This document shows, piece by piece, positions 15,824 through 60,995 of a DNA stretch of 64,000 bases (position 1 is the first letter of the stretch; each line of letters opens with the position of its first letter). Both the position numbers and the translations under genes were made by a program. Origin of the DNA: Rhodococcus rhodochrous (GTDB lineage Bacteria; Actinomycetota; Actinomycetes; Mycobacteriales; Mycobacteriaceae); assembly GCF_014854695.1 (NCBI RefSeq), contig NZ_CP027560.1:1-64000 (forward strand), written 5' to 3'. The notes beneath the pieces were generated by a model. It ran no database searches and was not told where the DNA came from. It worked only from the letters and a program-made list of their open reading frames with translations.

Positions 15824-16789
15824 TCAGCGGCGTGCGGTGAGGTTGCGGATGATGTGGTCGGCGAGCTTTCCGGCGTCGACGAGGTTGGGGCCGTGCTGGA
15901 CGCCGGGGACGGCGGGGCAGGGCAGTTTGGTGTGGACGATCGACTCGATCAGGGTGGTGCGCAGTGCCGGGCGGGACTGCTTGTGCCCGTCCCACCACTG
16001 TTCGTAGGTGTCGACCAGCCAGTTGTCGATGCGTCTGCGGTCGGCGTGCTCGGGCCAGTTCGCGGTGGCAGCGAGGCGTTCGAGGCGGTCGCGGTAGTCG
16101 GCGATGGCGTCGAGGGCTTCGGCGAGGGTGTACTTGCCTTTGCGCAGGTCGGTGAGCCAGGTGCGGTGCGGCTGCGGCATCGGCAGGGTGATGGTGCCTT
16201 CGGTGAGCAGCTGCGTGCCCTGGATGCCGAGGCGGATCGCGTGGTAGGCGAACTTGGTGTCGAAGCCGTACTTGTCGATCAGTTCGGGCCGGTTGGGGGT
16301 GTAGCCCTTGTTGCCGAGCAGTTTCTCGCGCTGGGAATCGAGGAAGCCGATGAACCGGTGGGCGGCTCGGCGGGAGATGAACATTCCGGCGTTGCGCTGC
16401 AGGTCCAGGCCGGGCTCGGTGATGGTGACGAGCTCCTTTTTGGGGATGAACAGCAGCAGGAGCACGGTGGGGTTGCCTTTGGCGGCGAGGTCGGCCCATT
16501 TGCGCAGGCTGTAGACGGTCAGGTCGAGGTCGCCTGGGCCGGAGCGGACGCCTTCGGGTTGGGTGCGGTACTGGTACATCTCGAAGGAGTGTTCGCTGCC
16601 GAGCAGGTCGCGGGTGCCGATGAGGTACTGGGGTGGCTCGATGCACACGCCCATTTCGTCGCGGTCGTCCTGGCTGCTGACGGTGACGCCGTGCAGGCCG
16701 GAGCCGACCTGGCCGCGCAGGATCGTGTGCTGTTCGGCGATGAGCTGGCGGCGGGTGTCGCTGTAGGCGACGGGCTGACGTTCTTGCAT
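15824..16789 (-). CDS. predicted nucleotidyltransferase (RlaP/COG3541-like)
   Basis: 321 aa. GSGLHGVTVSSQDDRDEMGV is the MNT-fold signature (GSxxxG... then D/DE acidic residues), and FEMYQYRTQPE, GDLDLTVYSLRKWADLAAKG with a hydrophobic strand LLLLF follow as in the RlaP-like predicted nucleotidyltransferases. These are proposed to transfer a nucleotide to RNA or protein; RlaP is linked to RNA repair. Phage copies are common but their substrate is unknown. ATG preceded by TGAACAGGAGAAACAC, where TGA is the stop of the upstream gene. Confidence 0.75.
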   Translation of the reverse strand: MQERQPVAYSDTRRQLIAEQHTILRGQVGSGLHGVTVSSQDDRDEMGVCIEPPQYLIGTRDLLGSEHSFEMYQYRTQPEGVRSGPGDLDLTVYSLRKWADLAAKGNPTVLLLLFIPKKELVTITEPGLDLQRNAGMFISRRAAHRFIGFLDSQREKLLGNKGYTPNRPELIDKYGFDTKFAYHAIRLGIQGTQLLTEGTITLPMPQPHRTWLTDLRKGKYTLAEALDAIADYRDRLERLAATANWPEHADRRRIDNWLVDTYEQWWDGHKQSRPALRTTLIESIVHTKLPCPAVPGVQHGPNLVDAGKLADHIIRNLTARR

Positions 16790-17741: not shown

Positions 17742-17983
17742 CCGTGGTTCTCGCTCGCGCAGGCAGCGTGCCGGATTTCGCCGACCAGATCCTCGGTCTG
17801 CTGGTCCCACCGTGTGGTGTCGACGATGCGCTGGCCGTCCTCGATGTCCTCTCCGCATTCGGGGCAGGTCACGGGAGTCCAGGTTTCGCAGGAGCAGGTG
17901 TTGGGGTCGCGGCTGTCGCAACCGCGGAAGTCGAAGCCCTTGGCGATGTGGGACTTGCGGGCCGGATAGGTGCGCTTAGCCAC
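17738..17983 (-). CDS. small zinc-finger-like protein
   Basis: 81 aa. GCDSRDPNTCSCETW and TCPECGEDI with IRHAACA provide Cys/His ligands for one or two metal sites. GTG start with AGAAGGAG upstream. Function unknown. Confidence 0.55.
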   Translation of the reverse strand: MAKRTYPARKSHIAKGFDFRGCDSRDPNTCSCETWTPVTCPECGEDIEDGQRIVDTTRWDQQTEDLVGEIRHAACASENHG

Positions 17984-18221
17984 GGGCGGGCTCCTTCTGG
18001 GTGCGGCGCTTGAGCAGGCCGTAGATGTTCGTGCCGCCGTAGGCGAAGGCGGAGATGATGAACCACCATTGGGCGGTGACCAGGCCGTATGTGATCCACA
18101 GGCCTTGGGCGGCGATGCCGACGATCGGGCCGACGCGGGACTGGGAGCGGTAGACGAGCACCTGTCCGGTCACCCCGATGAGCATCAGGGTGAACGACCA
18201 CCACAGGGAAATACCGGTCAC
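17976..18221 (-). CDS. small integral membrane protein
   Basis: 81 aa with three hydrophobic segments: ~7-24 (WWSFTLMLIGVTGQVLVY), ~31-49 (GPIVGIAAQGLWITYGLV) and ~50-68 (TAQWWFIISAFAYGGTNIYG), and a basic tail KRRTQK. GTG start in GTGA overlap. SWEET/PQ-loop-like in pattern only; role unknown. Confidence 0.6.
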   Translation of the reverse strand: MTGISLWWSFTLMLIGVTGQVLVYRSQSRVGPIVGIAAQGLWITYGLVTAQWWFIISAFAYGGTNIYGLLKRRTQKEPARG

Positions 18222-24660: not shown

Positions 24661-25560
24661 CTAGTTCTCCTCAAATTCGCGTTCGTACCAGTAGGGAAGG
24701 GCCACCAGGGCGACCTCGTGGTCGTGGTAGCCGGGCCAGATGCCCGATTCGGTGCACTGGGCGTAGATGTCGATCGCCTGGCGGTTGAGGATCCGGCCGA
24801 TCCGGCGAGCGTTGTTGTCGAGCTGAACCACCGACACCACGTAGGGGGCGGTCTTTTCCTGCACGACGAACAGGAACGCCGGGTCCTTGTCGATCCCGAG
24901 GTCGATCACCGCGTCGCAGTACCAGGCGTCCTGCTGGTGATAGCCGAAGTCGACGGCGGTCTTCTTGAACTTCTCCGGGTTGGCGTCGCGGCTGGTCTTG
25001 TAGTCGACGAGGTAGAGCCGGTTGCTGGTCCGGCGGGTCCAGTCGAAGCGGGCGCGGCGCCAGATTCCGGTGATCGGGTCGCGCCAGAAGGCGGACTGTT
25101 CAGCGATACCGGCGTCGGGCATGAGCAGCGGACCGGCGATCGGATGCTCGCGGATGCGCTGGGCCATGGCCTGGACCTGGTCGTAGTCGGCGGGCTTGAG
25201 CGGAACGGCGCATTCCTCGCGGGCCCGGTTGACGAAGTCCTTGGCCTCGGTGGTGGAGATCGCGCCGTTGGTGGCGAGGATTTCCTCGGGGATGCGGCGC
25301 AGCTCCGGGCCTTCGCCGAGGACGAGCTGGTGGGCGGCGTGCCCGAAGTCGAACTCGCGCTTGGCGGGGCGGCCGTGCAGGCGTTCGTGCTGGAACTTCG
25401 CGGGGCAGTCCTGGATGATCTTGCGGGCTCCGGTCGAGGACAGGGAGCTGCCGGGGACCGGATCGCGGTGGTAGCTCTCTTCGCTCATGCCCACGTAGAG
25501 GCCTGCGGTGAACGTCGGGTCCGGGGGTTGTTGCACTGCCTGGTTATGCTGGTTGGGCAT
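24661..25560 (-). CDS. PD-(D/E)XK exonuclease (RecE/DUF3799-like)
   Basis: 299 aa. MSEESYHRDPVPGSSLSSTG, ARKIIQDCPAKFQHERL and FGHAAHQLVLGEGPE open the fold; the catalytic core is RRARFDW (D) then LVDYKTSRDANPE (the D-x-K strand), followed by YHQQDAWYCDAV. This matches RecE/DUF3799-type 5'-3' dsDNA exonucleases. Together with the next gene and ssb it forms a homologous recombination set. First gene of the long leftward operon; ATG with GAAAGGA upstream. Confidence 0.8.
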   Translation of the reverse strand: MPNQHNQAVQQPPDPTFTAGLYVGMSEESYHRDPVPGSSLSSTGARKIIQDCPAKFQHERLHGRPAKREFDFGHAAHQLVLGEGPELRRIPEEILATNGAISTTEAKDFVNRAREECAVPLKPADYDQVQAMAQRIREHPIAGPLLMPDAGIAEQSAFWRDPITGIWRRARFDWTRRTSNRLYLVDYKTSRDANPEKFKKTAVDFGYHQQDAWYCDAVIDLGIDKDPAFLFVVQEKTAPYVVSVVQLDNNARRIGRILNRQAIDIYAQCTESGIWPGYHDHEVALVALPYWYEREFEEN

Positions 25561-25621
25561 GGATCGGTCGTCCTTTCGGTAGGTGATGCCGGTTCATTGC
25601 GGATGCGACAGTGGGTGTCGC

Positions 25622-25653
25622 GGCCCTCGCCTTGCCAGAGGCGGGGGCCTTTT
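25622..25653 (+). terminator. hairpin with U-run on the + strand
   Basis: GGCCCTCGCCT / AGGCGGGGGCC (one G-U) around 6 nt, then TTTT on the + strand. Both flanking genes run leftward, so as a terminator it would stop antisense transcription entering the regulator region; otherwise it is a leader hairpin of the leftward operon. Confidence 0.45.
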
Positions 25654-25708
25654 CCGTTTGTGCAGGTGGTGCAGCCGCTCCCCTAGTTTCTACTCGGCTA
25701 CTCGAGAC

Positions 25709-25758
25709 TAGACACCTGGGACCGATCTGTAGACACCGGCGCACGGCGACGATGTCAA
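25709..25758 (-). promoter_or_regulatory. candidate leftward operon promoter with TAGACAC operators
   Basis: On the minus strand a perfect TTGACA (25758-25753), overlapping the stop of the upstream regulator gene, is followed 17 nt later by TGTCTA (25735-25730). A second GTGTCTA lies at 25715-25709. The -10 match is poor, but a TTGACA with operators at and beyond the -10 would fit a repressed promoter for the 14-25 kb operon. Confidence 0.4.
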
Positions 25759-26075
25759 GCTGCGGTCGGGGCCTGGACGGTGTGGAGTTTGGGGACGAAC
25801 AGCACGCCGGGCTGGACCTGGAGGATCTGCTCGATGGCCGAAGCGATCTCTCGGGAGCACACGCGGGCCGCGCCGGAGCGCAGGTTGCCGATGTGGGACT
25901 TGCTGCAGGTGAGCTTCGGAGCTCCGAAGTCGCGGTGCCGGCGGTCGAGTTCTGCGGTGACGGCCTCGGCGAGGGATCGGCAGCTGTAGCGGTAGGTGCG
26001 CATGAGGTAGACGAACATCTCGCGGCCGCCTTCCGGGGCCAGCCTCATGTCCAGTCTGGTATCCGATTGGGGCAT
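25755..26075 (-). CDS. Cro/XRE-like HTH regulator
   Basis: 106 aa. CRSLAEAVTAELDRRHRDFG, CSKSHIGNLRSGAARVCSRE and IASAIEQILQVQPGVLF read as a divergent Cro/CI-like HTH (SKSHIGNLRSG as turn and recognition helix). Divergent from 26310 across an operator-rich spacer, so it is a candidate Cro- or excision-type partner in the genetic switch. ATG start; no strong Shine-Dalgarno. Confidence 0.65.
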   Translation of the reverse strand: MPQSDTRLDMRLAPEGGREMFVYLMRTYRYSCRSLAEAVTAELDRRHRDFGAPKLTCSKSHIGNLRSGAARVCSREIASAIEQILQVQPGVLFVPKLHTVQAPTAA

Positions 26076-26129
26076 CGTTCGGTCTCTCCGGGAACTGGGT
26101 GAATGGGGAAAGTGGGTGTCTCACAGCAT

Positions 26130-26290
26130 GTCTGCTGTTGTCCTAGACAATAGCAATCTGGGACAGAGGTGTCCACTGGACAACCCCTTCATACCCGGGA
26201 TAAACAGGACAAACACGGTGGTCTAGAGGTTGATGCTATATTAGACAGCCGCTCAGGTGTCCACTGATCGGGTAGCGAAACCGACACCGG
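26130..26290. promoter_or_regulatory. operator-rich divergent switch region
   Basis: Contains palindromes TTGTCCTAGACAA (26138-26150) and TGTCCACTGGACA (26170-26182), further half-sites GGGACA, AGGACA, TTAGACAG and TGTCCACTG (26258), and a TATATT (26237-26242) that could be a -10. Divergent HTH genes flank it. The consensus TGTCC-N3-GGACA is proposed as the repressor site. Confidence 0.6.
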
Positions 26291-26309
26291 GTGGTCAACA
26301 ATTGCGCCC

Positions 26310-26729
26310 ATGGCAAGAAGCAACGTTCCCGAGCCCTGGGCGAGCGCGATGGAAGCCGTCGGCGCTGTCAGCCCGCAGACGGGCTTACCGTCATTGAACG
26401 CGCTCGGGCAACGAGCTGGCGTCCACACGACGACCGTATCGAACCTGGTGCAGGGCAAGACCCAGGCCCCCGACCTCGACACGGTCACCAAACTGGCCCG
26501 TGCCCTCCGCAAGCCCGTGCGGGTGGTCGCCGCATGGGTGGGCATCAATTGGGTGGAGAACCGGCCCTACACCCCGCCCAAGGAAGCCGACCTACTCGAC
26601 GCCAGCGAGCGGGAGCTCGTCGACAACCTCATACGTTCGCTGGCCCGGCAGAAGACTGGGTTGACCCCCCAGGAGGCCGAGGAGGCCTCGACGGGCGGTC
26701 GGCAGGCCCAACTGTTCTCCCACAAGTAG
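26310..26729 (+). CDS. CI-like HTH repressor candidate
   Basis: 139 aa. SLNALGQRAGVHTTTVSNLV and KTQAPDLDTVTKLARALRKP are a canonical XRE HTH (residues ~28-80), followed by VRVVAAWVGINWVENRPYTP and a helical C-terminus. Likely the immunity repressor: promoter-proximal to the operator cluster, divergent from a second HTH gene, and terminated by its own intrinsic terminator. ATG with no clear Shine-Dalgarno, as often seen for phage repressor genes with short leaders. Confidence 0.7.
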   Translation: MARSNVPEPWASAMEAVGAVSPQTGLPSLNALGQRAGVHTTTVSNLVQGKTQAPDLDTVTKLARALRKPVRVVAAWVGINWVENRPYTPPKEADLLDASERELVDNLIRSLARQKTGLTPQEAEEASTGGRQAQLFSHK

Positions 26730-26776
26730 CTCGCTCCCCCGCCGGCAGGCGGGTCTCTAACCTCTGGAAGGGATAG

Positions 26777-26799
26777 ACACCCCGATTCGGGGTGTTTTT
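26777..26799 (+). terminator. intrinsic terminator after the repressor gene
   Basis: Stem ACACCCCG / CGGGGTGT with a 3-nt loop and TTTTT. The upstream arm is part of a TAGACAC site (26774-26780). Confidence 0.8.
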
Positions 26800-26840
26800 C
26801 TCGCCCCGAGCTGTCACATTGACGCCCGACAGTGTTAAGG

Positions 26841-27608
26841 ATGGCCACGGTGACCGAGCCTCGAACCCCGAATCCGATCCCCGGCCGACGGATGCGAGCC
26901 CGCGCGGTCGCCCCGCCGGGAACGGCGGTCGGCTACGTCCGCGTCTCCACCGAGGACCAGAAGGAACGCAAGCTCGGCCTCGACGCCCAGCGGGCGATCA
27001 TCACGGCCAAGGCCGCGACCTCCGGCGTGGAGATCGTGGGCTGGTTCGCCGACGAGGCGGTCTCGGGCACGGTGGCCCCGGACAAGCGGGCGGGAATGTC
27101 CGCCGCCCTGGCCGAGGTGCGCGAGCACCGCGCCGAGCGGATCATCGCCGCCAAGCTCGACCGTGTCAGCCGGTCGATCAAGGACTTCCTCAATCTCGCC
27201 GACCGGGCCGAGAAGGAGGGCTGGCACATCGTCCTGTGCGACCTGGACATGGACACCACGACCCCTCAAGGCCGGATGATCCTGCACCTGTTCGCGATGT
27301 TCGCCGAGTTCGAGCGGAACATGATCGCCGAACGCACCCGGGCCGCGCTGGCCGAGAAGAAGCGGCAGGGCGTGCAGCTGGGCAAGCCGTCCCAGGTCCC
27401 CGACGAGGTGATGACGCGCATCGTCCTCGAGACGTACGAGGGGCGCAGCCTGCGGCAGATCGCGAGCGGGCTGATGGGCGACGGGATTCCCACCGGTGGC
27501 GGCAGTGCGGTCTGGCATCCCCAGCAGGTGCGGCGAGCACTCGACCACCCCCGGGCGGTCGCTATCGCCGATGCCATCTTCGATGAGGACGGGAACCTCA
27601 CAGTTTAG
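26841..27608 (+). CDS. serine recombinase (resolvase/integrase family)
   Basis: 255 aa from ATG 26841 (a GTG at 26832 would add three residues). GYVRVSTEDQKERKLGLDAQ carries the catalytic Ser; RIIAAKLDRVSRSIKDFLNL, TTPQGRMILHLFAMFAEFER and ERTRAALAEKKRQGVQLGKP are the remaining core and E-helix motifs; SLRQIASGLMGDGIPTGGGS with WHPQQVRRALDH is a HTH-like start of the Recombinase domain. It is longer than a resolvase (~190 aa) but far shorter than large serine integrases, so multimer resolution of a plasmid form is as likely as integration. No att sites identified. Confidence 0.85.
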   Translation: MATVTEPRTPNPIPGRRMRARAVAPPGTAVGYVRVSTEDQKERKLGLDAQRAIITAKAATSGVEIVGWFADEAVSGTVAPDKRAGMSAALAEVREHRAERIIAAKLDRVSRSIKDFLNLADRAEKEGWHIVLCDLDMDTTTPQGRMILHLFAMFAEFERNMIAERTRAALAEKKRQGVQLGKPSQVPDEVMTRIVLETYEGRSLRQIASGLMGDGIPTGGGSAVWHPQQVRRALDHPRAVAIADAIFDEDGNLTV

Positions 27609-27640
27609 GCCTGTGAACTGCTCTAACAGTAGTACCTAGG

Positions 27641-27646
27641 TATAAT
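27641..27646 (+). promoter_or_regulatory. consensus -10 giving a leaderless transcript
   Basis: TATAAT ends 7 nt before the ATG at 27654, so transcription would begin at or one to two bases before the start codon. The -35 region is poor. Leaderless mRNAs are common in actinobacteria. Confidence 0.6.
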
Positions 27647-27653
27647 CTGCTGT

Positions 27654-27917
27654 ATGGCTAAGACACCCCAGTACACAGATGCCCCGAGCCTGCGTGGCTT
27701 CGACAAGTTCGCCAAGGGCGTCGCTCGCGACTGCTTCTCCAAGGGCTGGACCGGCCGCATCTCGGCCAAGTCCCACCTAATCCTGCGGTCCCCCGACGGC
27801 GAGACCACCGTGGCCATCGCCCACGCCAACGGCTCCCCGCGGGCCCGCGGCAACACCCTGGCCCCGATCCGCCGGTGGGAGCGCACCCAGCGTGACCGCA
27901 CACGCCCCGGACGCTGA
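27654..27917 (+). CDS. HicA-like small basic protein
   Basis: 87 aa. SKGWTGRISAKSHLILRSPD then GETTVAIAHANGSPRARGNT has the order of the HicA mRNA-interferase fold (GW...SH....PDG...V.I) seen in short actinobacterial and phage relatives. The catalytic His would be in AKSHL. No HicB-like antitoxin is adjacent, so toxin activity is doubtful; an RNA-binding regulator is an alternative. Probably translated from a leaderless mRNA. Confidence 0.5.
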   Translation: MAKTPQYTDAPSLRGFDKFAKGVARDCFSKGWTGRISAKSHLILRSPDGETTVAIAHANGSPRARGNTLAPIRRWERTQRDRTRPGR

Positions 27918-27989
27918 CCCGGACACCCCACATAGGTGACATCGGCCCTGTTGGGCGTGTCCGGTCCCCTATCCGGGCGCGGGCCGGTC

Positions 27990-28586
27990 ATGATCGAGGG
28001 CATGGACACCCACACTCCTGAACAGATCAACGGCACCCCCGTCGAGGCCGTCGAAGAACACATCAGGGAGCGGCCCCGCTGGTCGGCCGCCGAGTCGGCG
28101 CGGCGCTGCGGCGTCGGTCGCGCCACCATCCAGCGGGCCCTGGACGCCAAGCGGTTCCCGAACGCGGTCAAGGGCGAGAACGGCTGGGAGATCCCTCTCG
28201 AGGATCTGCTCGCGGCGGGGTTCAAGCCCGATCGGCCAGCGAAGCCGGACGAGGACGAGGATGACCGCGACGATGACCGGTCAGGGGAAGTGGACCTGCC
28301 CGAGCACCTGAAACGCCTGGTCGATCTCGAAATCGAGCTGGCTCAGACCCGTGCCCAGGTGGAGATCGAGCGTGTCCGGCGCGAGGCCGCCGAGGAGATC
28401 GCATCGAAGGTCTCGGCCGAGAAGGACAAGGTCATCTCCACGCAGGCGGCGATGCTGCGGATGCTCGAGCAGGCCAAGCCGGAGCCGAAGCAGGAGGTCG
28501 AGCCCGAGCCGGTGCAGCGGCAGATCCCGGTGGTGGTCGAGGAGCGGCCGGCGGGCTGGTTCAAGCGGACGTTCGGGCCACAGTAG
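27990..28586 (+). CDS. HTH plus coiled-coil DNA-binding protein (partition-type)
   Basis: 198 aa from ATG 27990; ATG 28002 is equally possible. WSAAESARRCGVGRATIQRA is a clear HTH (residues ~32-55) with NGWEIPLEDLLAAGF after it, as in MerR/excisionase-like readers. Then an acidic linker, a coiled coil (~110-165, LEIELAQTRAQVEIERVRRE) and the C-terminal WFKRTFGPQ. This build is typical of actinobacterial plasmid proteins thought to act in replication or partition. Alternative: excisionase for the serine recombinase. Function inferred. Confidence 0.65.
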   Translation: MIEGMDTHTPEQINGTPVEAVEEHIRERPRWSAAESARRCGVGRATIQRALDAKRFPNAVKGENGWEIPLEDLLAAGFKPDRPAKPDEDEDDRDDDRSGEVDLPEHLKRLVDLEIELAQTRAQVEIERVRREAAEEIASKVSAEKDKVISTQAAMLRMLEQAKPEPKQEVEPEPVQRQIPVVVEERPAGWFKRTFGPQ

Positions 28587-28669
28587 CTATCTCTTGTATG
28601 GCTATTAGCCGTACGTTTTGGGATAATGGTGGGGCTTCACCGACACGACAAACCACGAGAGGTCCCACG

Positions 28670-28891
28670 ATGGCCCGCAAGAGCATCACCCAGAAGAAAG
28701 TCACCGTCAACCTGCCCAGCATCGACGTCGACCGCATCGAAGGCATCGCCGAGCGGCACGACGTCAATCGCACCAACGCCCTGATCCGTGCCATCCGCAC
28801 CGCCGACTACATCGACCGGGCCTCCGCCGAAGGCGGCGAGGTCATCATCCGCAACAAGGACGGCATCGAGACCAAGGTCGTCTTCCAGTGA
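28670..28891 (+). CDS. ribbon-helix-helix DNA-binding protein
   Basis: 73 aa. KKVTVNLPSIDVDRIEGIAE then NRTNALIRAIRTADYIDRAS is a ribbon-helix-helix fold (beta strand VTVNLP, two helices), as in Arc/ParG/CopG regulators. In this plasmid-like module it could control copy number or partition. ATG with GAGAGG upstream; a -10-like GATAAT lies at 28622-28627. Confidence 0.7.
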   Translation: MARKSITQKKVTVNLPSIDVDRIEGIAERHDVNRTNALIRAIRTADYIDRASAEGGEVIIRNKDGIETKVVFQ

Positions 28892-29178
28892 CCGACGGCT
28901 CCACGCCGGGCAAGGTCAAAACTGTCGACGTCAACGACGAGGGCACCGAGGACACCTTCCATGCGGGCGAAGTCCGCGAAGGTCAGCGCACCAAACTGTC
29001 CTGGGCCATCCTCGGTGCCCTCATCGTCGTCTCCATCGCCTACGTCTGGACCGCACTCGCCGCATCCGAGTACCTCTGGGAACGCGCGTCCTGGCCGATC
29101 GGCAACGTCCTGACAGCCTTCGTCGGCCTCACCGGCACCACAGTCGGCTACTACTTCGGCTCCAACAGCCGAGACTGA
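28888..29178 (+). CDS. small membrane protein
   Basis: 96 aa, GTG start in GTGA overlap with the RHH gene. Charged N-terminus, then hydrophobic segments ~37-58 (LSWAILGALIVVSIAYVWTA) and ~69-89 (WPIGNVLTAFVGLTGTTVGY). Function unknown. Confidence 0.6.
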   Translation: MTDGSTPGKVKTVDVNDEGTEDTFHAGEVREGQRTKLSWAILGALIVVSIAYVWTALAASEYLWERASWPIGNVLTAFVGLTGTTVGYYFGSNSRD

Positions 29179-29436
29179 CGAACACCCCGAACACCCCGAA
29201 CACCCGACCGGACACCGGGCGGACACGCCCGCGGACACCGGTCATGATCACGGTCAGCTCGCGGTCACCCATCCCCTGATTTCGGTGTCTAGCTGGGTCT
29301 TTCCAGGTGTCTAGTATCCAGATGGCAGTTCGAGATCAGGGGTAGGGTGGACGACGCGCCGATGTCCGCGATGGTCCTGTGATCTGAGTGGTTCTCGAGG
29401 CAAGATGGCACACACTCCGAGGCCGACCGGCCCCGG
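29179..29436. other. non-coding spacer with short tandem repeats
   Basis: About 260 bp without a credible gene. It starts with three tandem copies of CCCCGAACA-type 9-mers (29181-29205). It also holds two direct GTGTCTAG motifs (29285-29292 and 29307-29314), the heptamer found at other intergenic borders. Nothing else recognised. Confidence 0.45.
29285..29314. promoter_or_regulatory. two direct GTGTCTAG motifs
   Basis: GTGTCTAG at 29285 and 29307, 22 bp apart, i.e. two helical turns on the same face. Candidate binding sites for the phage repressor. Confidence 0.45.
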
Positions 29437-29475
29437 AAAAAGAGAAACCCCGGACCTGGCAGGGTCCGAGGTTTC
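29437..29475 (-). terminator. intrinsic terminator on the strand antisense to rep
   Basis: Minus-strand hairpin GAAACC-C/A-CGGACC with its complement (29444-29475, one mismatch, 6-nt loop) followed by TCTCTTTTTCC. There is no leftward protein gene here to terminate, so it would end an antisense RNA starting upstream of the rep genes. Confidence 0.55.
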
Positions 29476-29540
29476 GAGGTTGGGAAGCGACCCCAACCGA
29501 ACACAACGAGGTTCGTTGCCCATGCTACATGGGCAACGGT
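29437..29540 (-). ncRNA. possible antisense copy-control RNA
   Basis: Three consecutive hairpins occupy the leader of the rep genes: 29444-29475, 29478-29498 (GGTTGGG/CCCAACC) and 29515-29537 (perfect 10-bp stem, loop CTA). The first works as a minus-strand terminator. Such hairpin-rich antisense RNAs regulate initiator synthesis in many plasmids. No clear minus-strand promoter is seen, so this remains a hypothesis. Confidence 0.35.
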
Positions 29541-29606
29541 GTTCGGGCGCACCGCATCTGAGGTGTGTCGGGTTGCTTCCCTCCTCGCGACACGAGAGGA
29601 CGGAAG

Positions 29607-29831
29607 TTGATCTTCCACAGCGACAAGCCGGTGTTTCTGTACCCGAGAGCTGCCGCGCTCGACCCGAACATCAGTTTCGAGGCCAAGGGCCTGCTCGCGT
29701 ACATGCACGCTATCGACTCGGTGGGGCTTTCTCACCTCCCGGTCGGTCTCACCGAGGACCGCGCCCAGGAGCTCCTGATCGAACTCGACAACGCGGGCTA
29801 CCTCGAACCGGCCGAGCAGGACCGTCTCTAA
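29607..29831 (+). CDS. Rep-associated small protein
   Basis: 74 aa from TTG 29607 with GAGAGGACG 7-8 nt upstream; no ATG is available. KPVFLYPRAAALDPNISFEA and KGLLAYMHAIDSVGLSHLPV resemble the start of the winged-helix domain of phage/plasmid initiators (FxAKGLLAY pattern). Overlaps the next gene by one base (TAATG), so the two are translated together. Confidence 0.55.
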   Translation: MIFHSDKPVFLYPRAAALDPNISFEAKGLLAYMHAIDSVGLSHLPVGLTEDRAQELLIELDNAGYLEPAEQDRL

Positions 29832-30232
29832 TGGCCGGCAACGGGTCGAGCTACAAGGCCCTCGAATGGGTGTGGGGCTTGTCCGAGGTCACGCCCACTC
29901 AGAAGCTCGTGCTCCTGTCCCTGGCGTGCCGCGTCGACCAGGCCTACTCCTGCTTCCCCGGGCTGAAACTGATCTCCAAGGAGACGTGCCTGGGTCGTTC
30001 GACGGTTATCGACGCGCTCAACGCACTCGAGGCCAATGACCTGCTGTTCCGGGCCACTCGAGTGCGACCGAACGGCAGTCACTCGACAAACCGCTACTAC
30101 CTCAACCATCCCGAAGCCCCGCACCTGACGGGCGAACTGGACGAGGACGACGACCCCAACCGGATCGCCGAACTCGACCAGGCCACGAAACGTGCGATCG
30201 CTGCCCAGAAGAAGCGGAGGAGTGAGGGGTAG
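29831..30232 (+). CDS. winged-helix replication initiator candidate
   Basis: 133 aa. EVTPTQKLVLLSLACRVDQA, SCFPGLKLISKETCLGRSTV, IDALNALEANDLLFRATRV and STNRYYLNHPEAP match the helix_turn_helix_36-type winged domain of Rep proteins; C-terminus is acidic then basic (AIAAQKKRRSE). Immediately downstream, starting inside the stop codon, lies a four-copy iteron array, which is where such proteins bind. Probably initiates plasmid-mode replication. No helicase-loading domain seen; the host would supply it. Confidence 0.6.
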   Translation: MAGNGSSYKALEWVWGLSEVTPTQKLVLLSLACRVDQAYSCFPGLKLISKETCLGRSTVIDALNALEANDLLFRATRVRPNGSHSTNRYYLNHPEAPHLTGELDEDDDPNRIAELDQATKRAIAAQKKRRSEG

Positions 30233-30320
30233 TCCGGCAGCTGGACCCCGGGGTAGTCCGGGAGCTGGACCCCCTTTAGGGGTCCGGGAGCTGGACTACC
30301 CCGTCCGAGAGCCGGACCCC
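30226..30320. repeat. iteron array (four GTCCGGGAGCTGGAC copies)
   Basis: Copies: GGGGTAGTCCGGCAGCTGGA.. at 30226-30249, near-identical 24-mer at 30250-30273, GGGGTCCGGGAGCTGG.. at 30279-30302 and a diverged GTCCGAGAGCCGGACCCC at 30303-30320. Each core is itself a dyad (GTCC..AGCT..GGAC). Spacing is 24-29 bp, i.e. near integral helical turns. The first copy overlaps the end of the rep-like gene. This is the layout of an iteron-type origin. Confidence 0.75.
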
Positions 30321-30370
30321 TCTTAACCACCCAATTAACCACCCATTACTAACCATCCAATGAATGAACC
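30321..30370. other. AT-rich stretch beside the iterons (possible unwinding element)
   Basis: CTTAACCACCCAATTAACCA continuing through three TTAACCACCC(A/T)-like repeats to AATGAATGAACC. It is much more AT-rich than the surrounding DNA and directly adjoins the iterons, as expected for an origin melting region. Confidence 0.55.
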
Positions 30371-30429
30371 GAGGGGGTACGTGAGGTGACCCGGTTACGT
30401 GCGGGGCGGGGAGACTCCTCGACGCCCCA

Positions 30430-30482
30430 GACGAATCAATCTCGAGTCGGTGGGGGAGGGGAGGGGTGACGCCTGATTCGTC
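30430..30482. repeat. 9-bp inverted repeat downstream of the iterons
   Basis: GACGAATCA (30430-30438) and TGATTCGTC (30474-30482) are perfect complements 35 bp apart, between the AT-rich stretch and the 30487 gene. Could be part of the origin or a terminator; no U-run. Confidence 0.4.
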
Positions 30483-30486
30483 GGTC

Positions 30487-30756
30487 TCAGAGGTCTGTGG
30501 CTGCTTTGGCGAGGGTGTGTGCGTGCGCTATGCCGACCTCCCAGGGCCCGAGGCGCCGGAACCCGAGAAGTTCGAGTTCGGCGTCGAGCAAGGGTGGGTC
30601 GAATCCGCCTCCTCCGGCCCAGCCTGGCGGTCGGTGTGTGCTGCACACCGGTTCTCCGTACTCGTCGGTGACGTCTATGCCGGGCAGGGCCCCGCTGTAG
30701 TCGACCGAGTTGGTCGCGTAGCAGTGGTAGATCGTCCTCTCGTCAAGGTTAGACAT
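30487..30756 (-). CDS. possible leftward ORFan
   Basis: 89 aa, function unknown. Reads like a real soluble protein (PGIDVTDEYGEPVCSTHRPP; LELLGFRRLGPWEVGIAHAH). ATG at 30756 lies inside the palindrome TAGACATGCGAAATGTCTA, so a protein bound there would block its expression. The opposite-strand ORF over the same span looks less protein-like. Confidence 0.5.
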   Translation of the reverse strand: MSNLDERTIYHCYATNSVDYSGALPGIDVTDEYGEPVCSTHRPPGWAGGGGFDPPLLDAELELLGFRRLGPWEVGIAHAHTLAKAATDL

Positions 30757-30768
30757 GCGAAATGTCTA
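30750..30768. promoter_or_regulatory. palindromic operator TAGACAT-N5-ATGTCTA
   Basis: Perfect 7-bp arms (30750-30756, 30762-30768) around GCGAA. It overlaps the start codon of the leftward gene and lies upstream of the DUF2637 gene. The half-site TAGACAT is one base from the recurrent TAGACAC. Confidence 0.55.
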
Positions 30769-30892
30769 CCGGAGCGTCCTCGCGTGTCATGCGGACTTGA
30801 CCGGGCATGATCATCTACGCTTTGCCCTGTCCGCGAGGCTGACCGAACAGCCGACCGGACCTGCCCGACACCCACACAGTCAGGACACCCAC

Positions 30893-31702
30893 ATGCGTCG
30901 CAACCACCGTGACCCGCAGACACCGCCGAAGCCGCGCTACCCGATGCCGGTGAAACTCGCCGCCGGGGCCGCTCTCGCCGTGGCCGCCGCGTCGTTCCTG
31001 CGGTCGTTCACCGCCTTGTCCGACCTGGCGATGATGTTCGAGGTGCCCGCCGATCAGGCGTGGACGCTGCCCATCGGCATCGACGGGCTGGTGATCGTCG
31101 CGACGGTCGCGGCCGTGATGCTGCGCGGTTGGCGCTGGTACTCGTGGATGCTGCTGATCGTCGGCACCCTGCTCTCGGTCGCCGGTAACGGTATCCATGC
31201 CTGGCTGATCACCGAGAATCCGATCGGTGTGGGCATCGCGGTCATCCCGCCGTTGGTCACCCTCGCCGCGATCCATCTGACCGTGGTGCTCGCTCACGAG
31301 AACCGGCCGCAGCAGGCCGCGCCGATGCCGCAGCCGCCGATGCGCGAGCCCGAGCCGGTCGCCGAGTCTGCCCCGTTGGTCACCGACAACGACCTGCGTA
31401 TCCCGGATGAATGGCTCGATGCCCAGGGTGTCCAGCGCCCGGTGTCCGAGGACATGACCGTGCAGCTGCCCGTCGTCGATCCGCAGGTCGGCGAGGTGTC
31501 CGAGGTCGAGCAGGGGCCGGTGGGTGTGGTGATCGACGCCGATGACGACCCGGAGGGTGCTCGGGAGTGGGCGCTCGAGCAGATGCGCCTGGGCACGATG
31601 AACTATGTGGAGATCGCTCAGGGTGTCAATCGCAGTGAGGGCACGATCCGGCGGTGGCGCGACGCGGCAGGCATTCCGCCGCGTCTGACGGTCGCGGCCT
31701 GA
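30893..31702 (+). CDS. DUF2637 membrane protein with C-terminal HTH
   Basis: 269 aa. Four hydrophobic segments: ~24-43 (AAGAALAVAAASFLRSF), ~58-77 (AWTLPIGIDGLVIVATVAAV), ~84-103 (YSWMLLIVGTLLSVAGN) and ~112-133 (GVGIAVIPPLVTLAAIHLTV), the DUF2637 pattern of actinobacterial plasmid and phage proteins. The C-terminus (NYVEIAQGVNRSEGTIRRWR) is a HTH, suggesting a membrane-tethered DNA binder. DUF2637 genes are common on conjugative actinomycete plasmids; role uncertain. ATG 30893 with AGGA upstream. Confidence 0.75.
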   Translation: MRRNHRDPQTPPKPRYPMPVKLAAGAALAVAAASFLRSFTALSDLAMMFEVPADQAWTLPIGIDGLVIVATVAAVMLRGWRWYSWMLLIVGTLLSVAGNGIHAWLITENPIGVGIAVIPPLVTLAAIHLTVVLAHENRPQQAAPMPQPPMREPEPVAESAPLVTDNDLRIPDEWLDAQGVQRPVSEDMTVQLPVVDPQVGEVSEVEQGPVGVVIDADDDPEGAREWALEQMRLGTMNYVEIAQGVNRSEGTIRRWRDAAGIPPRLTVAA

Positions 31703-31721
31703 CCCCGGACACGCGAAAAGC

Positions 31722-31757
31722 CGCCCCCGTCTGCGGCGGGGGACGCAGACGGGGGCG
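31722..31757. terminator. bidirectional intrinsic terminator
   Basis: Perfect 14-bp stem CGCCCCCGTCTGCG and complement, 8-nt loop; U-runs in both directions (CTTTT leftward, ACTTT rightward). Separates the converging plasmid module and tail-fibre operon. Confidence 0.8.
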
Positions 31758-31778
31758 ACTTTCGTTACGCTAGTGGAC

Positions 31779-31805
31779 GCGGGCCGGTGGGAAGTACCGG
31801 CCCGC
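31779..31805 (-). terminator. second hairpin after the tail-fibre operon
   Basis: Perfect 10-bp stem GCGGGCCGGT / ACCGGCCCGC with a 7-nt loop, just after the last leftward structural gene (stop 31826). Confidence 0.55.
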
Positions 31806-31825
31806 ACCATTTGTCCGGCCGAGGA

Positions 31826-33163
31826 TCAGGGCGTGAACGCCTTGAAGTCGTCGATACGTCCGGGAGGGCCACCGCCACCGGAGACGAGCTCGTCGTTCTG
31901 GATCGTCGCGCCCACCCACCGCCGCGAGAACGGGATCACCGAATCGGCGACCGTGCCCTGCAGCACGACCGCGCCGTTGACCCGAGCGGTGTAGAGGTTG
32001 CCTTCGGCGCGCAGCGTGACGACCGCGCCCTCTGGGAACTTGGTGGTGTTGACGTACTGCGCGACACCGGTCACCGGGACGAACCCGTTGGGGGCGTCGT
32101 AGTCCTCGTAGTACAGCGCCATGATCGACTTCGTCCACGAGAACTGGACACCGAACTGCGCGCCCGGATTGGTGACCGGATCCTGGAACGGATCAGCCCG
32201 GACGACGAGTCCGCACGCCGAGTGTTCTGGGTCGCGCCCGTCCCACCGGACAACGCCCTCGACCTGCTGCGTGTCGTGCGGCATCGGCTCGTGCCACCAC
32301 GCATACGACAGCGGCACCGACGGGGTGTTGGTCCCGTCGAGGCGGCCGTTTGCCCGAACGAGCGTGCCGCCACCGGTGGTGATCCAGTTGGAGTCGAGCG
32401 GACCATCGCCGTCGAAACCGTCCGATGCGCGCAGGACCATCGGTGCGACGTACTTGTCGTAGACGGCGAAGTTGTCCAGGCTCGGCCCATAGGTCGTGCC
32501 AAGGAAGTTCCGCACCGACACGAGATAGACGCCACCATGCCGATAGTCCGGGCCAACTTTCGTAACACCGGCGGTGTCCGTCCATGAGGCGACAACGGAC
32601 TCGACACCCGCACGGCGACGTTTCGCCGTGTACTCGTTGCCGACAGCCTCCAGGATCATCGTGTCGCCCGCGACATACGCGTTTGTCGGCACGGCAACCT
32701 GGCGCGTGAAGGCGCCGTTCACGACCGAATAGATGCCCGCAGTCGCCGCAGTTCCCGCCGCGTTCAAGACGACAAAATTGTCTGCCGCCAGATCGCTACG
32801 CGCCACGACACCCACGTAGTAACCCGACGCGGGGGTGGTGACCACGACGGCCTCTACTGCCATGTCGTTCGTCGCGACCGGCTCGGTATAGATGAGCGAG
32901 TGCTGGCACTGCGCATTGATGCCGGACGTTGCCGTCGGAGTGCCGGCGCGCACCGCGTTAGCGGCGATCGTCGCCGGAGCCGTGCCTGTCCACAGGCGAT
33001 CGAACCACAATGCCCCGAGTGCGGTGCGGTTGAAGTCGTCCCGGTAGTCACGCCGGGACGAGAACACCTGTTTCCACCGGCCGTCGTCCCAGATCCATCC
33101 GTTGCCGAGGGGAACGGACCCCAGCTGCATACGGCCGACCTTGGTGGATCCGAACTGCAGCAT
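31826..33163 (-). CDS. tail protein with two jelly-roll-like repeats
   Basis: 445 aa. Short N-terminal anchor (FGSTKVGRMQLGSVPLGNGW), then two copies of a lectin/laminin-G-like module, each opening with D-x-F/D-x-W (DDFNRTALGALWFDRLWTG; DGFDGDGPLDSNWITTGGG) and containing V.A.V........GL..R.D segments. Probably a receptor- or glycan-binding tip protein. The start overlaps the stop of the long fibre gene (ATGATG). Last gene of the structural operon. Confidence 0.65.
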   Translation of the reverse strand: MLQFGSTKVGRMQLGSVPLGNGWIWDDGRWKQVFSSRRDYRDDFNRTALGALWFDRLWTGTAPATIAANAVRAGTPTATSGINAQCQHSLIYTEPVATNDMAVEAVVVTTPASGYYVGVVARSDLAADNFVVLNAAGTAATAGIYSVVNGAFTRQVAVPTNAYVAGDTMILEAVGNEYTAKRRRAGVESVVASWTDTAGVTKVGPDYRHGGVYLVSVRNFLGTTYGPSLDNFAVYDKYVAPMVLRASDGFDGDGPLDSNWITTGGGTLVRANGRLDGTNTPSVPLSYAWWHEPMPHDTQQVEGVVRWDGRDPEHSACGLVVRADPFQDPVTNPGAQFGVQFSWTKSIMALYYEDYDAPNGFVPVTGVAQYVNTTKFPEGAVVTLRAEGNLYTARVNGAVVLQGTVADSVIPFSRRWVGATIQNDELVSGGGGPPGRIDDFKAFTP

Positions 33164-40567: not shown

Positions 40568-41242
40568 ATGCCCGATGTTACGTGTCTCGACGCTGAGCTG
40601 ATCCCTGAGAAGTCCTGCCGGATGTGCGGCGAGGTGAAGCCTTTGACCGACTTCCACCGGAGGTCCAAGTCGAAGGACGGCAGGCAGAACAGATGCAAGC
40701 CCTGCGCAATCTCCACCGCGAAGGCGTCCGTGGACCGCAACCGCGAGACGGTGCGCGAGTACCAGAAGCGGTACGGCCAGGAGAAACGCGAGCAGCTTGC
40801 GGCGTACCGGAGCGCCTACTACCGCAAGAACCGCACCCAGCTCCTCGCTCGGTACAAGGAGAAGTACCGCGAGAACCGCGACGTCATCCGCGCCCGGACC
40901 ATGGCCTACTACGAGAACAACCGGGAACGCCACGCCGAGAACGCCCGCCGGTGGCGCGCAGCCAATCCCGAACGGGAGAAGCTGCGCTACACCCGCGGCA
41001 ACGCCCGTCGGCGTGCGTGGAAGGCGGCGAACCCGCACATCCCGTACACCCTCGAGCAGCTTCGCCAGCGCCTCGACTACTACGGGGGTCTGTGCTGGGT
41101 CTGCCGGTCCGTGGGCGTCGAGGTCGACCACGTGAAGCCGGTCTCGAAAGGCGGACCGGAAATGCTCGCCAACCTTCGCCCCATTTGCCCTCCCTGCAAT
41201 AAGCGGAAAACCAACAAATGGCCATTCCGCCCTACTGATTGA
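40568..41242 (+). CDS. free-standing HNH homing-type endonuclease
   Basis: 224 aa on the strand opposite to all neighbours. Zinc-finger-like start (CRMCGEVKPLTDFHRRSKSK, CKPC), a long basic helical region of RxxNxxxRxRY-type repeats (YREKNRD-like), then the HNH core LCWVCRSVGVEVDHVKPVSK, GPEMLANLRPICPPCNKRKT. ATG 40568 with GAGAGG upstream. Orientation, own promoter and position between structural genes indicate insertion by homing. Its 3' end overlaps the Gp37-like gene by 11 bp. Confidence 0.85.
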   Translation: MPDVTCLDAELIPEKSCRMCGEVKPLTDFHRRSKSKDGRQNRCKPCAISTAKASVDRNRETVREYQKRYGQEKREQLAAYRSAYYRKNRTQLLARYKEKYRENRDVIRARTMAYYENNRERHAENARRWRAANPEREKLRYTRGNARRRAWKAANPHIPYTLEQLRQRLDYYGGLCWVCRSVGVEVDHVKPVSKGGPEMLANLRPICPPCNKRKTNKWPFRPTD

Positions 41243-60269: not shown

Positions 60270-60995
60270 CTATGAAGTTGTCAGGGAGGGCATCGACGAG
60301 CCTTTGCGAAGGTTGCAACCGGCGTGCGCCGGACGGAGGTTGTCGTTGCTGTGCTCGCCACCCCGAGCGAGCGGGACGACGTGGTCGAAGTGCAGGTCAG
60401 GCCACGAGTCGATGTCGCCACCGCACAGGTGGCAGACCATGCCGTGCTCGGCGAGGACGAGGGTGAAGTCGACCTTGCCGACCGTGGCGGCACGGATGCG
60501 TCCTCGGCGCTTGAGCCGCTGACGCTGGTAGTTCTCGCGGGCCTTGGCGGGGTTCTTACTGGCCCAACGGCGGAAGTTCTCTGCCGCCCGTTCGGCGTTG
60601 GCCTCACGCCAGCGGGCCGCGTTGGCGCGGTGCTGATCGGGGTTGGCCTCGCGCCAGCATTTGCTGCGGGCGCTCTCGACCTCGCGGTTCTCCCGCCAGC
60701 GGCGGACCTCGCGGTCCCGGACCTTCTCGGGATTGCGGAGCTTCCACTGCCGGGAGTCGGCGTTCTTGCGAGCTCGATTAGCGGCGTCGTAGTGGTACTG
60801 GCACAGGCCGGTGTAACGACGAGGGCGGTCGCAGTCATCGGTCGAGCACAGATCGCCCGTGGGGGACTTGGTTTGGATCGGGGCATCCATGTCCCGACCG
60901 TCGCGGGCGCGTTGATAGTGCGCCCGGCAGAACCCCTTCGCGAGTACCTTACGATCGCACCATTCCACCGCGCACGGCTTGAAAGATGTTGTCAC
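60270..60995 (-). CDS. HNH endonuclease between terminase and portal
   Basis: 241 aa. Zinc-knuckle start (PCAVEWCDRKVLAKGFCRAH, LCSTDDCDRPRRYTGLCQYH), a basic repeat region (ARWREANAERAAENFRRWAS), then the HNH core VCHLCGGDIDSWPDLHFDHV, VPLARGGEHSNDNLRPAHAG with CN. Common homing site in actinophages. GTG start; no Shine-Dalgarno, but an extended -10 (TGGTAAAAT at 61007-61002) puts the transcription start at the GTG, so the mRNA is probably leaderless. Confidence 0.85.
   Translation of the reverse strand: MTTSFKPCAVEWCDRKVLAKGFCRAHYQRARDGRDMDAPIQTKSPTGDLCSTDDCDRPRRYTGLCQYHYDAANRARKNADSRQWKLRNPEKVRDREVRRWRENREVESARSKCWREANPDQHRANAARWREANAERAAENFRRWASKNPAKARENYQRQRLKRRGRIRAATVGKVDFTLVLAEHGMVCHLCGGDIDSWPDLHFDHVVPLARGGEHSNDNLRPAHAGCNLRKGSSMPSLTTS

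Follow-up and report, generated by a model that had tools for sequence, protein, structure and literature searches.

A plasmid-like replication and maintenance cassette in the integrase slot of a Rhodococcus phage suggests an extrachromosomal prophage

The window analysed here, 64,000 nt of a Rhodococcus rhodochrous assembly (NZ_CP027560.1, positions 1 to 64,000), was part of an 85,315-bp phage contig with a GC content of 67.7%, one of four contigs in the assembly. A tailed-phage structural gene set was present: the terminase, portal, capsid, tape measure and tail genes matched those of Gordonia phage VanLee, and most of them matched its relative PSonyx too. The terminase was 61.1–61.6% identical to those of the Gordonia phages VanLee, Aleemily, Morgana, Cafasso and ObLaDi, and the capsid protein 60.8% identical to that of VanLee.

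Two regulator genes preceded the region of interest. The first (25755–26075, reverse strand) adjoined an exonuclease gene and pointed away from the cassette. Its product contained a helix-turn-helix (HTH) and was a homologue of VanLee gp35 (46.8% identity over 77 aa, to VanLee 29099–29326), which is an 'immunity repressor' in GenBank and Cro in the VanLee paper. The product of the second (26310–26729, forward strand) was homologous to VanLee gp34 (37.5% over 120 aa) and to proteins labelled 'Cro' in Morgana (42.6% over 61 aa) and Aleemily (40.6% over 69 aa). It matched a transcriptional repressor family (PHROG 13730, 4.7e-22), and by these matches was probably the prophage repressor.

The cassette opened with a serine recombinase gene (26850–27608, forward strand). 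The earlier description of its product as resolvase-sized was borne out by a length of 252 aa and a match to Pfam Resolvase (1.5e-38). The two best plasmid matches were the recombinases of pYLC3 (50.8% identity) and pC1 (46%), circular plasmids of 5.8 and 7.6 kb. If the protein were instead an integrase, the phage could integrate, and the contig would be its excised form. Its best PHROG was indeed one named 'integrase' (PHROG 95, 8e-47), and it covered about half of the Recombinase model (49 of 102 positions). Large serine integrases have a full Recombinase domain plus further regions after it. The 252-aa protein ended without the rest of that domain or the later regions, and its best plasmid matches came from small circular plasmids, which made this explanation very improbable.

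A small ORF of 87 aa (27654–27917, forward strand) followed, with no match among 28 loci at E 0.01. The next gene (27990–28586, forward strand) encoded a 198-aa protein. The earlier note had read it as an HTH–coiled-coil protein, in agreement with its weak Pfam matches (HTH_31 0.0014, HTH_17 0.0015) and with a structure model of a winged HTH and a 60-residue helix (residues 103–162). Weak structural neighbours of the model included the DNA-binding domain of RacA. Foldseek returned no match with E < 0.001 for this model or for that of the initiator described below, so both models support the fold class only.

Relatives of the 27990 protein were found in 26 plasmid records and in 15 of 250 other genomes of the family, and occurred in ordinary chromosomal loci too. 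On small Rhodococcus and Nocardia plasmids (pYLC3, pC1), relatives of the recombinase and of the HTH–coiled-coil protein were encoded side by side. From its plasmid relatives and its model, the protein was considered a candidate single-protein partition factor.

Two candidate sites accompanied this gene. With a matrix made from the upstream regions of the relatives, this phage left out, GGGCGTGTCCGG (27953–27964, forward strand) was within the top three sites in 85 kb and was taken as the candidate operator of the gene. Another of the top three, at 29219, lay within an array in which CGRACAC is directly repeated six times over 60 bp (29179–29238, forward strand), a candidate partition or regulatory site. 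In 200 simulated contigs the maximum was three copies per 70 bp. This array may be a partition site. The upstream regions of the 27990 relatives (10 loci, including that of this phage) did not exceed 400 control windows in repetitiveness.

The other small genes were less informative. The 73-aa product of 28670–28891 (forward strand) had been called a ribbon-helix-helix (RHH) protein; its matches (RHH_8 0.052, DUF7692 0.0018) made this a weak assignment, and 50% identical relatives were found on six large Rhodococcus plasmids. The following 96-aa ORF (28888–29178, forward strand) looked like a membrane protein by eye and matched DUF6185 under its cut-off (0.0026). At 30893–31702 (forward strand), the DUF2637 protein reported earlier was recovered (DUF2637 1.5e-11; PHROG 733 3.9e-43), with a weakly HTH-like end (HTH_29 0.024). 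We dropped this protein as a sign of extrachromosomal life, its relative in phage Naca being adjacent to an integrase. All Rfam matches in 25500–32000 were far under the gathering scores.

Two Rep-like winged-helix genes had also been proposed. For 29607–29831 (forward strand, 74 aa) the proposal was not verified, with no Pfam match up to E 0.1 and a single PHROG match, to a family of unknown function (0.066). For 29831–30232 (forward strand) it held. The 133-aa product contained a winged-helix initiator domain by Pfam (HTH_36, 7.8e-10) and by the structure model, matched several PHROG replication-initiation families (best 2.3e-14), and was 52.8% identical over 123 aa to a protein of Rhodococcus phage Tonitrus.

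The alignment showed that the C-terminal half typical of most relatives was missing from this protein. Ten of the 11 relatives called in the context loci were 259–306 aa long and the other 136 aa; no call was obtained for the gene in the twelfth locus (L054), which left it outside this count. A short gene of this kind, of 136 aa, lay on a 216-kb contig that matched a Mycobacterium gordonae plasmid. Plasmid relatives of the 29831 gene were few (two records), and in five context loci its relatives adjoined what reads as a tyrosine integrase.

Four imperfectly palindromic 15-bp iterons, with the sequence GTCCGG(G/C)AGC(T/C)GGAC or close to it, occupied 30232–30317 (forward strand) and formed a candidate origin. 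They started at 30232, 30256, 30282 and 30303, the first where the TAG stop codon of the initiator gene ends, confirming an array of four from the rep stop codon. A tandem repeat was found at 30226–30273 as well. In a test for chains of 12-mers (up to two mismatches, spacing 18–30 bp), four copies were reached in three of the 16 sequences that follow the winged-helix domain in initiator genes, this one included, versus 1 of 400 random 300-bp windows; 10 of the 16 had fewer than three copies. Across the contig, nine of 851 windows contained a chain of four, in four places including these iterons.

Adjoining the iterons, as noted before, was an AT-rich stretch of TTAACCACCC-type repeats (30318–30371, forward strand), a candidate unwinding element. 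Its GC content was 44.4%, a value equally low in 0.25% of the 54-bp windows of the contig. In this order of an HTH_36 domain, iterons and an AT-rich element, the 29831 gene resembles the initiators called lambda O-like, a name also used in PHROG. Iterons and then AT-richer repeats were found in Tonitrus, pC1 and pRA1 as well. In Tonitrus they go with the HTH_36 domain of gp63, as here, the AT-richer stretch of gp63 being recognized by eye; its iterons are coding, whereas those of this phage come after the stop codon.

Of the 133 predicted proteins, 50 were compared with Pfam or PHROGs, among them 43 of the 54 of at least 150 aa. None of the 50 was a replicative polymerase, helicase or primase, in agreement with the earlier note. 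A P-loop pattern was present in two proteins of the full set, a 115-aa head-tail protein and the terminase, and was credible in the terminase alone. The 133 proteins contained no ParA-type Walker motif, and a ParA-like protein from locus L053 had no match in this phage (E 1e-3). A DnaQ-like exonuclease and an SSB were encoded.

Beyond the window, at contig 78342–79298, a second replication initiator of 318 aa had matches at different parts of its length to three PHROG replication-initiation families (best 6.5e-19). Its gene contained repeats, five copies versus a shuffle maximum of four, with a chain of three. It is conceivable that this gene drives replication of the phage-plasmid in both states, and that the 29.8-kb gene and its iterons are what remains, in a regulatory role, of a former origin. 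Its length of 318 aa, the three initiation matches, the in-gene repeats and the lack of the C-terminal half in the 29831 protein are in keeping with this. Set against it are the good preservation of the iterons and the AT-rich stretch behind them, the short gene of the same kind on the 216-kb, apparently plasmid, contig, and the distance of the 78.3-kb gene from the repressor. We consider a leftover unlikely.

Permuted tRNA-like sequences were also observed at contig 77.5–78.0 kb. They matched YrlA RNAs, and their novelty was dropped.

The position of the cassette was compared with related phages. In all five Gordonia relatives examined (VanLee, Aleemily, Morgana, Cafasso and ObLaDi), a tyrosine integrase lay between the regulator gene and the lysis genes. 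In this phage the same slot, beside the same regulator pair conserved on its far side, held the serine recombinase, the HTH–coiled-coil and RHH-like proteins, the HTH_36 initiator with its iterons and AT-rich stretch, and the DUF2637 protein. The tyrosine integrase of the relatives had no match in this phage. Besides that integrase, the Gordonia phages encode a RepA-like initiator and carry an excise gene, which sets them apart from this phage. The annotation of VanLee, Aleemily and Morgana also includes a DnaB-like helicase; for Cafasso and ObLaDi the sequence read stopped short of that position. VanLee DnaB had no match in this phage.

Four relatives in genomes of the family encoded a relative of the same tyrosine integrase (E 1e-25 to 3e-6), clearly in the slot in G096 and G315, at a contig end in G194 and elsewhere in G270. 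PSonyx was without an annotated integrase and also without such a cassette. The 29831 gene had no match in VanLee, PSonyx or those parts of Aleemily and Morgana that were read. The iterons, whose absence from close relatives was one half of the counter-evidence named in the earlier note, were apparently absent from these relatives, but as part of the cassette swap and not of an integrated prophage.

Among the 28 loci compared, the 27654, 28670, 28888, 29607 and DUF2637 genes had no match, so that the whole cassette was seen nowhere else. Neither the 29831 protein nor the capsid protein had a relative among the viral contigs searched. Seventeen viral loci found through the exonuclease, not all of which need extend to the slot, had no match to the cassette recombinase, coiled-coil protein or initiator (E 1e-3); one matched the DUF2637 protein and one the 25755 regulator. 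No paper on this phage or cassette was found in a literature search outside which most subscription journals lay.

The phage contig was very probably a circle, as a reading frame ran across its ends with a TGATG overlap at the junction (85315/1). The region 29400–30500 had a single match in its own genome, and a search of that genome gave no further copy of the cassette. A further argument, that VanLee ends were joined here, was dropped since VanLee virion DNA is circularly permuted (VanLee paper). For the same reason a circular contig alone is no proof of an episome: virion DNA is a possible source of this separate contig, and DNA from particles, or from lytic replication in culture, would assemble as a circle without any stable plasmid state. 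Such an origin was judged improbable, as a plasmid-like cassette in the integrase slot and a retained regulator pair are expected of a temperate phage with an extrachromosomal prophage.

The phage was very probably temperate. The exchange of the integrase for genes resembling those of small plasmids suggests, on sequence grounds, a plasmid rather than a chromosomal life. Several points weigh against this: the short 29831 protein, the second initiator, the lack of ParA, the circular permutation of VanLee DNA, the scarcity of 29831 relatives on plasmids and the integrase-adjacent ones among them elsewhere, the chromosomal 27990 relatives, the absence of the whole cassette from the loci compared, and PSonyx with neither annotated integrase nor cassette. 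The separate contig, the position of the cassette and the pairing of two of its genes on small plasmids nevertheless support the earlier proposal that the phage persists as a plasmid, its plasmid-type replication and maintenance genes being recognized by homology. We put at about 0.7 the probability that this phage of the VanLee kind is kept as a circular extrachromosomal element by the following mechanism.

In the prophage, the winged-helix protein encoded at 29831 would bind the iterons and open the AT-rich stretch. As no helicase was found in the phage, it would then recruit replication proteins of the host. Dimers would be resolved by the serine recombinase, and the 27990 protein would partition the element by binding the 29179–29238 array, perhaps together with the 28670 protein. 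The cassette lies behind the probable repressor gene and is read the same way, so that its expression would be expected in lysogens. The second initiator (78.3–79.3 kb) would serve lytic replication. With that initiator outside the window as an alternative, 29.4–30.5 kb is a putative replicon of the prophage state.

More tentatively, and with doubt prevailing, upkeep may be free of ParA: the HTH–coiled-coil protein would partition an 85-kb prophage through its promoter site and the 29179–29238 array, beside a winged-helix-only initiator that uses host helicase and primase, and the same family would stabilize small Rhodococcus and Nocardia plasmids. The N-terminal winged HTH and long coiled coil resemble those of pSK1 Par and RocS, as does the amphipathic-looking end of the protein (PMC11500499). 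The DUF536 region of pSK1 Par was not matched (Pfam, E 0.1), and the partition role here is putative.

The plasmids pYLC3 and pRA1 (Rhodococcus) and pC1 (Nocardia) likewise carry a serine recombinase and an HTH–coiled-coil gene, although the pRA1 recombinase did not match that of the phage at the threshold used for the 28 loci. Initiators with in-gene iterons occur in pC1 (415 aa) and pRA1 (444 aa), and pYLC3 has one of another type. Their annotation contains no phage structural genes except one 'head completion' label in pRA1.

The lifestyle itself is already known. In cluster A mycobacteriophages, according to PMC7157519, parABS replaces the integration cassette, with a RepA subset formed by Miko, Rachaly and Jeeves, so the exchange of integration for replication has been described before. 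Without its repA, Miko is reported to form normal plaques but unstable lysogens (PMC7157519). Like the RepA phages of that account, this phage would be temperate and have, downstream of its structural genes, a cassette for replication and partition where one for integration would otherwise lie. It shares with them an HTH-containing initiator, here of 133 aa versus 320–350 aa. It differs in belonging to another lineage, in having no ParA found, and in carrying a serine recombinase and an HTH–coiled-coil protein in place of parABS. We interpreted it as a phage-plasmid whose lineage and cassette type are both new. If this is true, a second, unrelated lineage would suggest that the slot beside the repressor is a general docking place for maintenance modules, and the cassette would offer a Rhodococcus vector and a test case of partition without ParA.

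The assembled genome comprised four contigs (6.09 Mb): the phage contig, C4 (85,315 bp), whose bases 1–64000 form the window, and three others of 5.46 Mb, 423 kb and 120 kb. Ninety-six plasmid records, 76 of which come from Rhodococcus, matched a 19-kb piece taken from the 120-kb contig, in line with a probable Rhodococcus host. Our own gene caller predicted 133 genes on C4. On the minus strand, a gene ending at C4:3 (stop TGA) shared one base with an ATG, and the frame from that ATG crossed C4:1 into 85315, continuing as one unbroken protein. This continuity across the contig ends made it very likely that C4 is a circle. A search for an exact repeat at the C4 ends found none. The circular contig is no proof of an episome, because circularly permuted DNA, as in Gordonia phage VanLee (PMC8320454), assembles as a circle.

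The C4 terminase was 61.1–61.6% identical to those of Gordonia phages VanLee, Aleemily, ObLaDi, Cafasso and Morgana, and 55% identical to that of Corynebacterium phage PSonyx. The portal, capsid, tape measure and tail genes of C4 were matched in the same order in VanLee, which forms turbid plaques and is considered temperate by its authors (PMC8320454). A search with the capsid protein found relatives in 4 of 400 further genomes of the family, and 30 relatives turned up when genome contigs were scanned, among others from Nocardia, Nonomuraea and Streptomyces. Three HNH endonuclease genes were present, at 60270–60890, at L002:13505–14056 (L002 being C4 from 60 kb on) and at 40622–41242, the last on the strand opposite to the surrounding tail genes. 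On the host chromosome, relatives of tail gene 31826 (86%; C1:916532–917149) and of the phage DUF2637 gene (71%; C1:924822–925173) lay about 8 kb apart, perhaps in another prophage.

In VanLee the lysis genes are followed, in order, by those for a tyrosine integrase, a metalloprotease, gp34, gp35, a Cas4-family exonuclease and a RecT-like protein. A tyrosine integrase was found in this slot in all five Gordonia relatives examined, the others being Aleemily, Morgana, Cafasso and ObLaDi. The four relatives among the family genomes all encoded an integrase match, clearly in the slot in two (G096 and G315). Read in reverse, the setting on C4 was the same: an exonuclease VIII-like gene (24661–25560; PHROG 412, 3.6e-94) with a gene of unknown PHROG 3657 behind it, then the homologues of gp35 (25755–26075) and gp34 (26310–26729). 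A tblastn comparison of the C4 exonuclease with VanLee found nothing at E 1e-4, so that on this side the agreement is one of function and of the two regulators. GenBank labels gp34 as Cro and gp35 as immunity repressor. The VanLee paper reverses these labels (PMC8320454), and its naming fits the gene positions.

Beyond the regulators, the expected place of the integrase was occupied by the cassette (26.85–31.7 kb). At E 1e-3, C4 had no match to the integrase of VanLee or to that of Aleemily. The absence of an integrase is by itself not unique to C4, since the PSonyx annotation likewise lacks one.

The initiator of the cassette (29831–30232) is a protein of 133 aa ending at the first iteron. 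Ten of the 11 relatives called were 259–306 aa long; one, on an M. gordonae-like contig, had 136 aa. The model of the 29831 protein was a winged helix whose neighbours were transcription factors of a general kind; weaker neighbours included the DnaD N-terminal domain. Rhodococcus phage Tonitrus had the closest relative found for this initiator (52.8% identity across 123 aa); five further phage records matched more weakly. Two plasmids matched, pFQ12 of Frankia and a Mycobacterium gordonae plasmid, as did 11 of 301 family genomes, its own included. A match to the cassette's DUF2637 gene (30893–31702) lay within about 1 kb of the initiator gene in 6 of 12 loci. In five loci (L053, L056–L059) the gene adjoined an apparent tyrosine integrase, recognized by eye, which suggested that much of this initiator family resides in integrated elements. 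The integrase-like protein of L053 matched the same place in G270, a family-genome relative, as the VanLee integrase. By eye, a 60-aa excisionase-like gene was noted in L053 and L056, and a ParA-like gene in L053.

The four iterons, imperfect palindromes at 30232, 30256, 30282 and 30303, were followed by TTAACCACCC-type repeats (30318–30371; 44.4% GC). Tonitrus carried four repeats, spaced 22–24 bp, inside gp63 and then a similar AACC-rich stretch. At least three chained copies were found in 6 of 16 initiator stretches, against 9 of 400 controls. Such chains are thus common among initiators, but not universal, being absent from the other ten.

Two further genes of the cassette had relatives on small plasmids. 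The two best plasmid matches listed for the serine recombinase (26850–27608) were pYLC3 of Rhodococcus sp. YL-1 (7.6 kb, 50.8%) and pC1 of Nocardia sp. C-14-1 (5.8 kb, 46%), among at least 5000 matching records, as such recombinases are common. The HTH-coiled-coil protein (27990–28586) matched 26 plasmid records, including pYLC3, pC1 and pRA1. On pYLC3 the recombinase and HTH-coiled-coil genes are separated by two small genes, as against one in the phage; on pC1 the HTH-coiled-coil gene is inverted relative to this order. By annotation and domain pRA1 has a recombinase, which did not match that of the phage at E 0.01. The pC1 and pRA1 initiators (415 and 444 aa) were 41.6% identical over 209 aa and contained three and four in-gene repeats, respectively; Pfam found HTH_36 in the pRA1 initiator and nothing in that of pC1. 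The RHH-like protein (28670–28891) had relatives on six large Rhodococcus plasmids. Cassette genes other than the recombinase, HTH-coiled-coil and initiator genes had no match in any of the 28 loci compared.

The HTH-coiled-coil protein also matched 15 of 250 other family genomes, and in the four loci read (L122–L125; two pairs, each with a shared setting) its relatives lay between ordinary-looking chromosomal genes. These findings argue against a plasmid-only origin of the gene.

The model of this protein showed a winged HTH and one helix (103–162), with low confidence elsewhere. Its best structural neighbours (E 0.04–0.12) were phage Pukovnik Xis, RdfS and the RacA DNA-binding domain, so that an Xis-like role may be conceivable. 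pSK1 Par and RocS likewise combine an HTH with a coiled coil, RocS ends in an amphipathic helix and the end of pSK1 Par resembles it (PMC11500499); however, no DUF536 was found in the phage protein. In a lenient test of hydrophobic moment at the protein ends, the best 11-mer exceeded the 90th percentile of single random 11-mers in the phage protein and four of five relatives, but not in that of pYLC3.

Six CGRACAC copies were clustered at 29179–29238, whereas simulated contigs (n = 200) had at most three per 70 bp. An operator matrix was built from the regions upstream of relatives of the 27990 gene, this phage excluded, and scanned over 85 kb. The second-ranked site was 29219, inside the array, and the third 27953, just before the 27990 gene, which suggests that the 27990 protein may bind the array. 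The top site, 53617, was inside the capsid gene, and the next sites scored closely. The regions upstream of the relatives showed no repeat richness; a GGGCGTGTCCG-type motif was common to them.

The earlier note had seen no phage polymerase, helicase or primase, and this held for the 50 of 133 predicted proteins scanned against Pfam or PHROGs. These included 43 of the 54 of at least 150 aa; the remaining 11 have VanLee counterparts among its structural, terminase or other genes, save any missed in that comparison. C4 encoded an RlaP-type nucleotidyltransferase (15824–16789; 1.2e-32), a DnaQ-like exonuclease, SSB, RusA, a ThyX-type thymidylate synthase and a ribonucleotide reductase small chain. 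The ParA-type pattern was absent from all 133 called proteins, two of which, the terminase and a head-tail protein of 115 aa, carried a P-loop pattern. Two YrlA-type Y RNAs resembling permuted tRNAs (L002:17566–17690 and 17867–17993, minus strand; E 4.3e-6 and 5.8e-6, under the gathering score) adjoined a Ro-like TROVE protein gene. The Y RNAs, the Ro-like protein and the RlaP-type enzyme together suggest an RNA-repair set.

A second winged-helix initiator (C4 78342–79298; L002:18342–19298) matched PHROG initiation families 3171, 1032 and 2447. Because its gene also contains repeats, the phage element has two candidate origins. The second initiator may be lytic, or may be the sole initiator. 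For prophage upkeep the 29.8-kb locus is considered the likelier candidate, as it lies behind the probable repressor, occupies the slot in which the integrase has been replaced and has kept its iterons. GGTGTCTAG occurred five times, at 29284, 29306, 9017, 25708 and contig position 78342 (two on the plus and three on the minus strand), and these are possible operators. A non-coding stretch at contig 65151–65650 (L002:5151–5650) had 23 hits to GGGCCC-type palindromes in 500 bp, against at most two per any 500 bp in VanLee, PSonyx, Tonitrus and three related contigs; it may be one more region for control or replication.

Cluster A mycobacteriophages are known to have exchanged integration modules for replication modules, and the authors who described this do not exclude it in other clusters (PMC7157519). 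No published report of this cassette appeared in the literature searched. What seems to be new is the phage lineage in which the cassette occurs, the kinship of two of its genes with plasmid genes and the lack of ParA.
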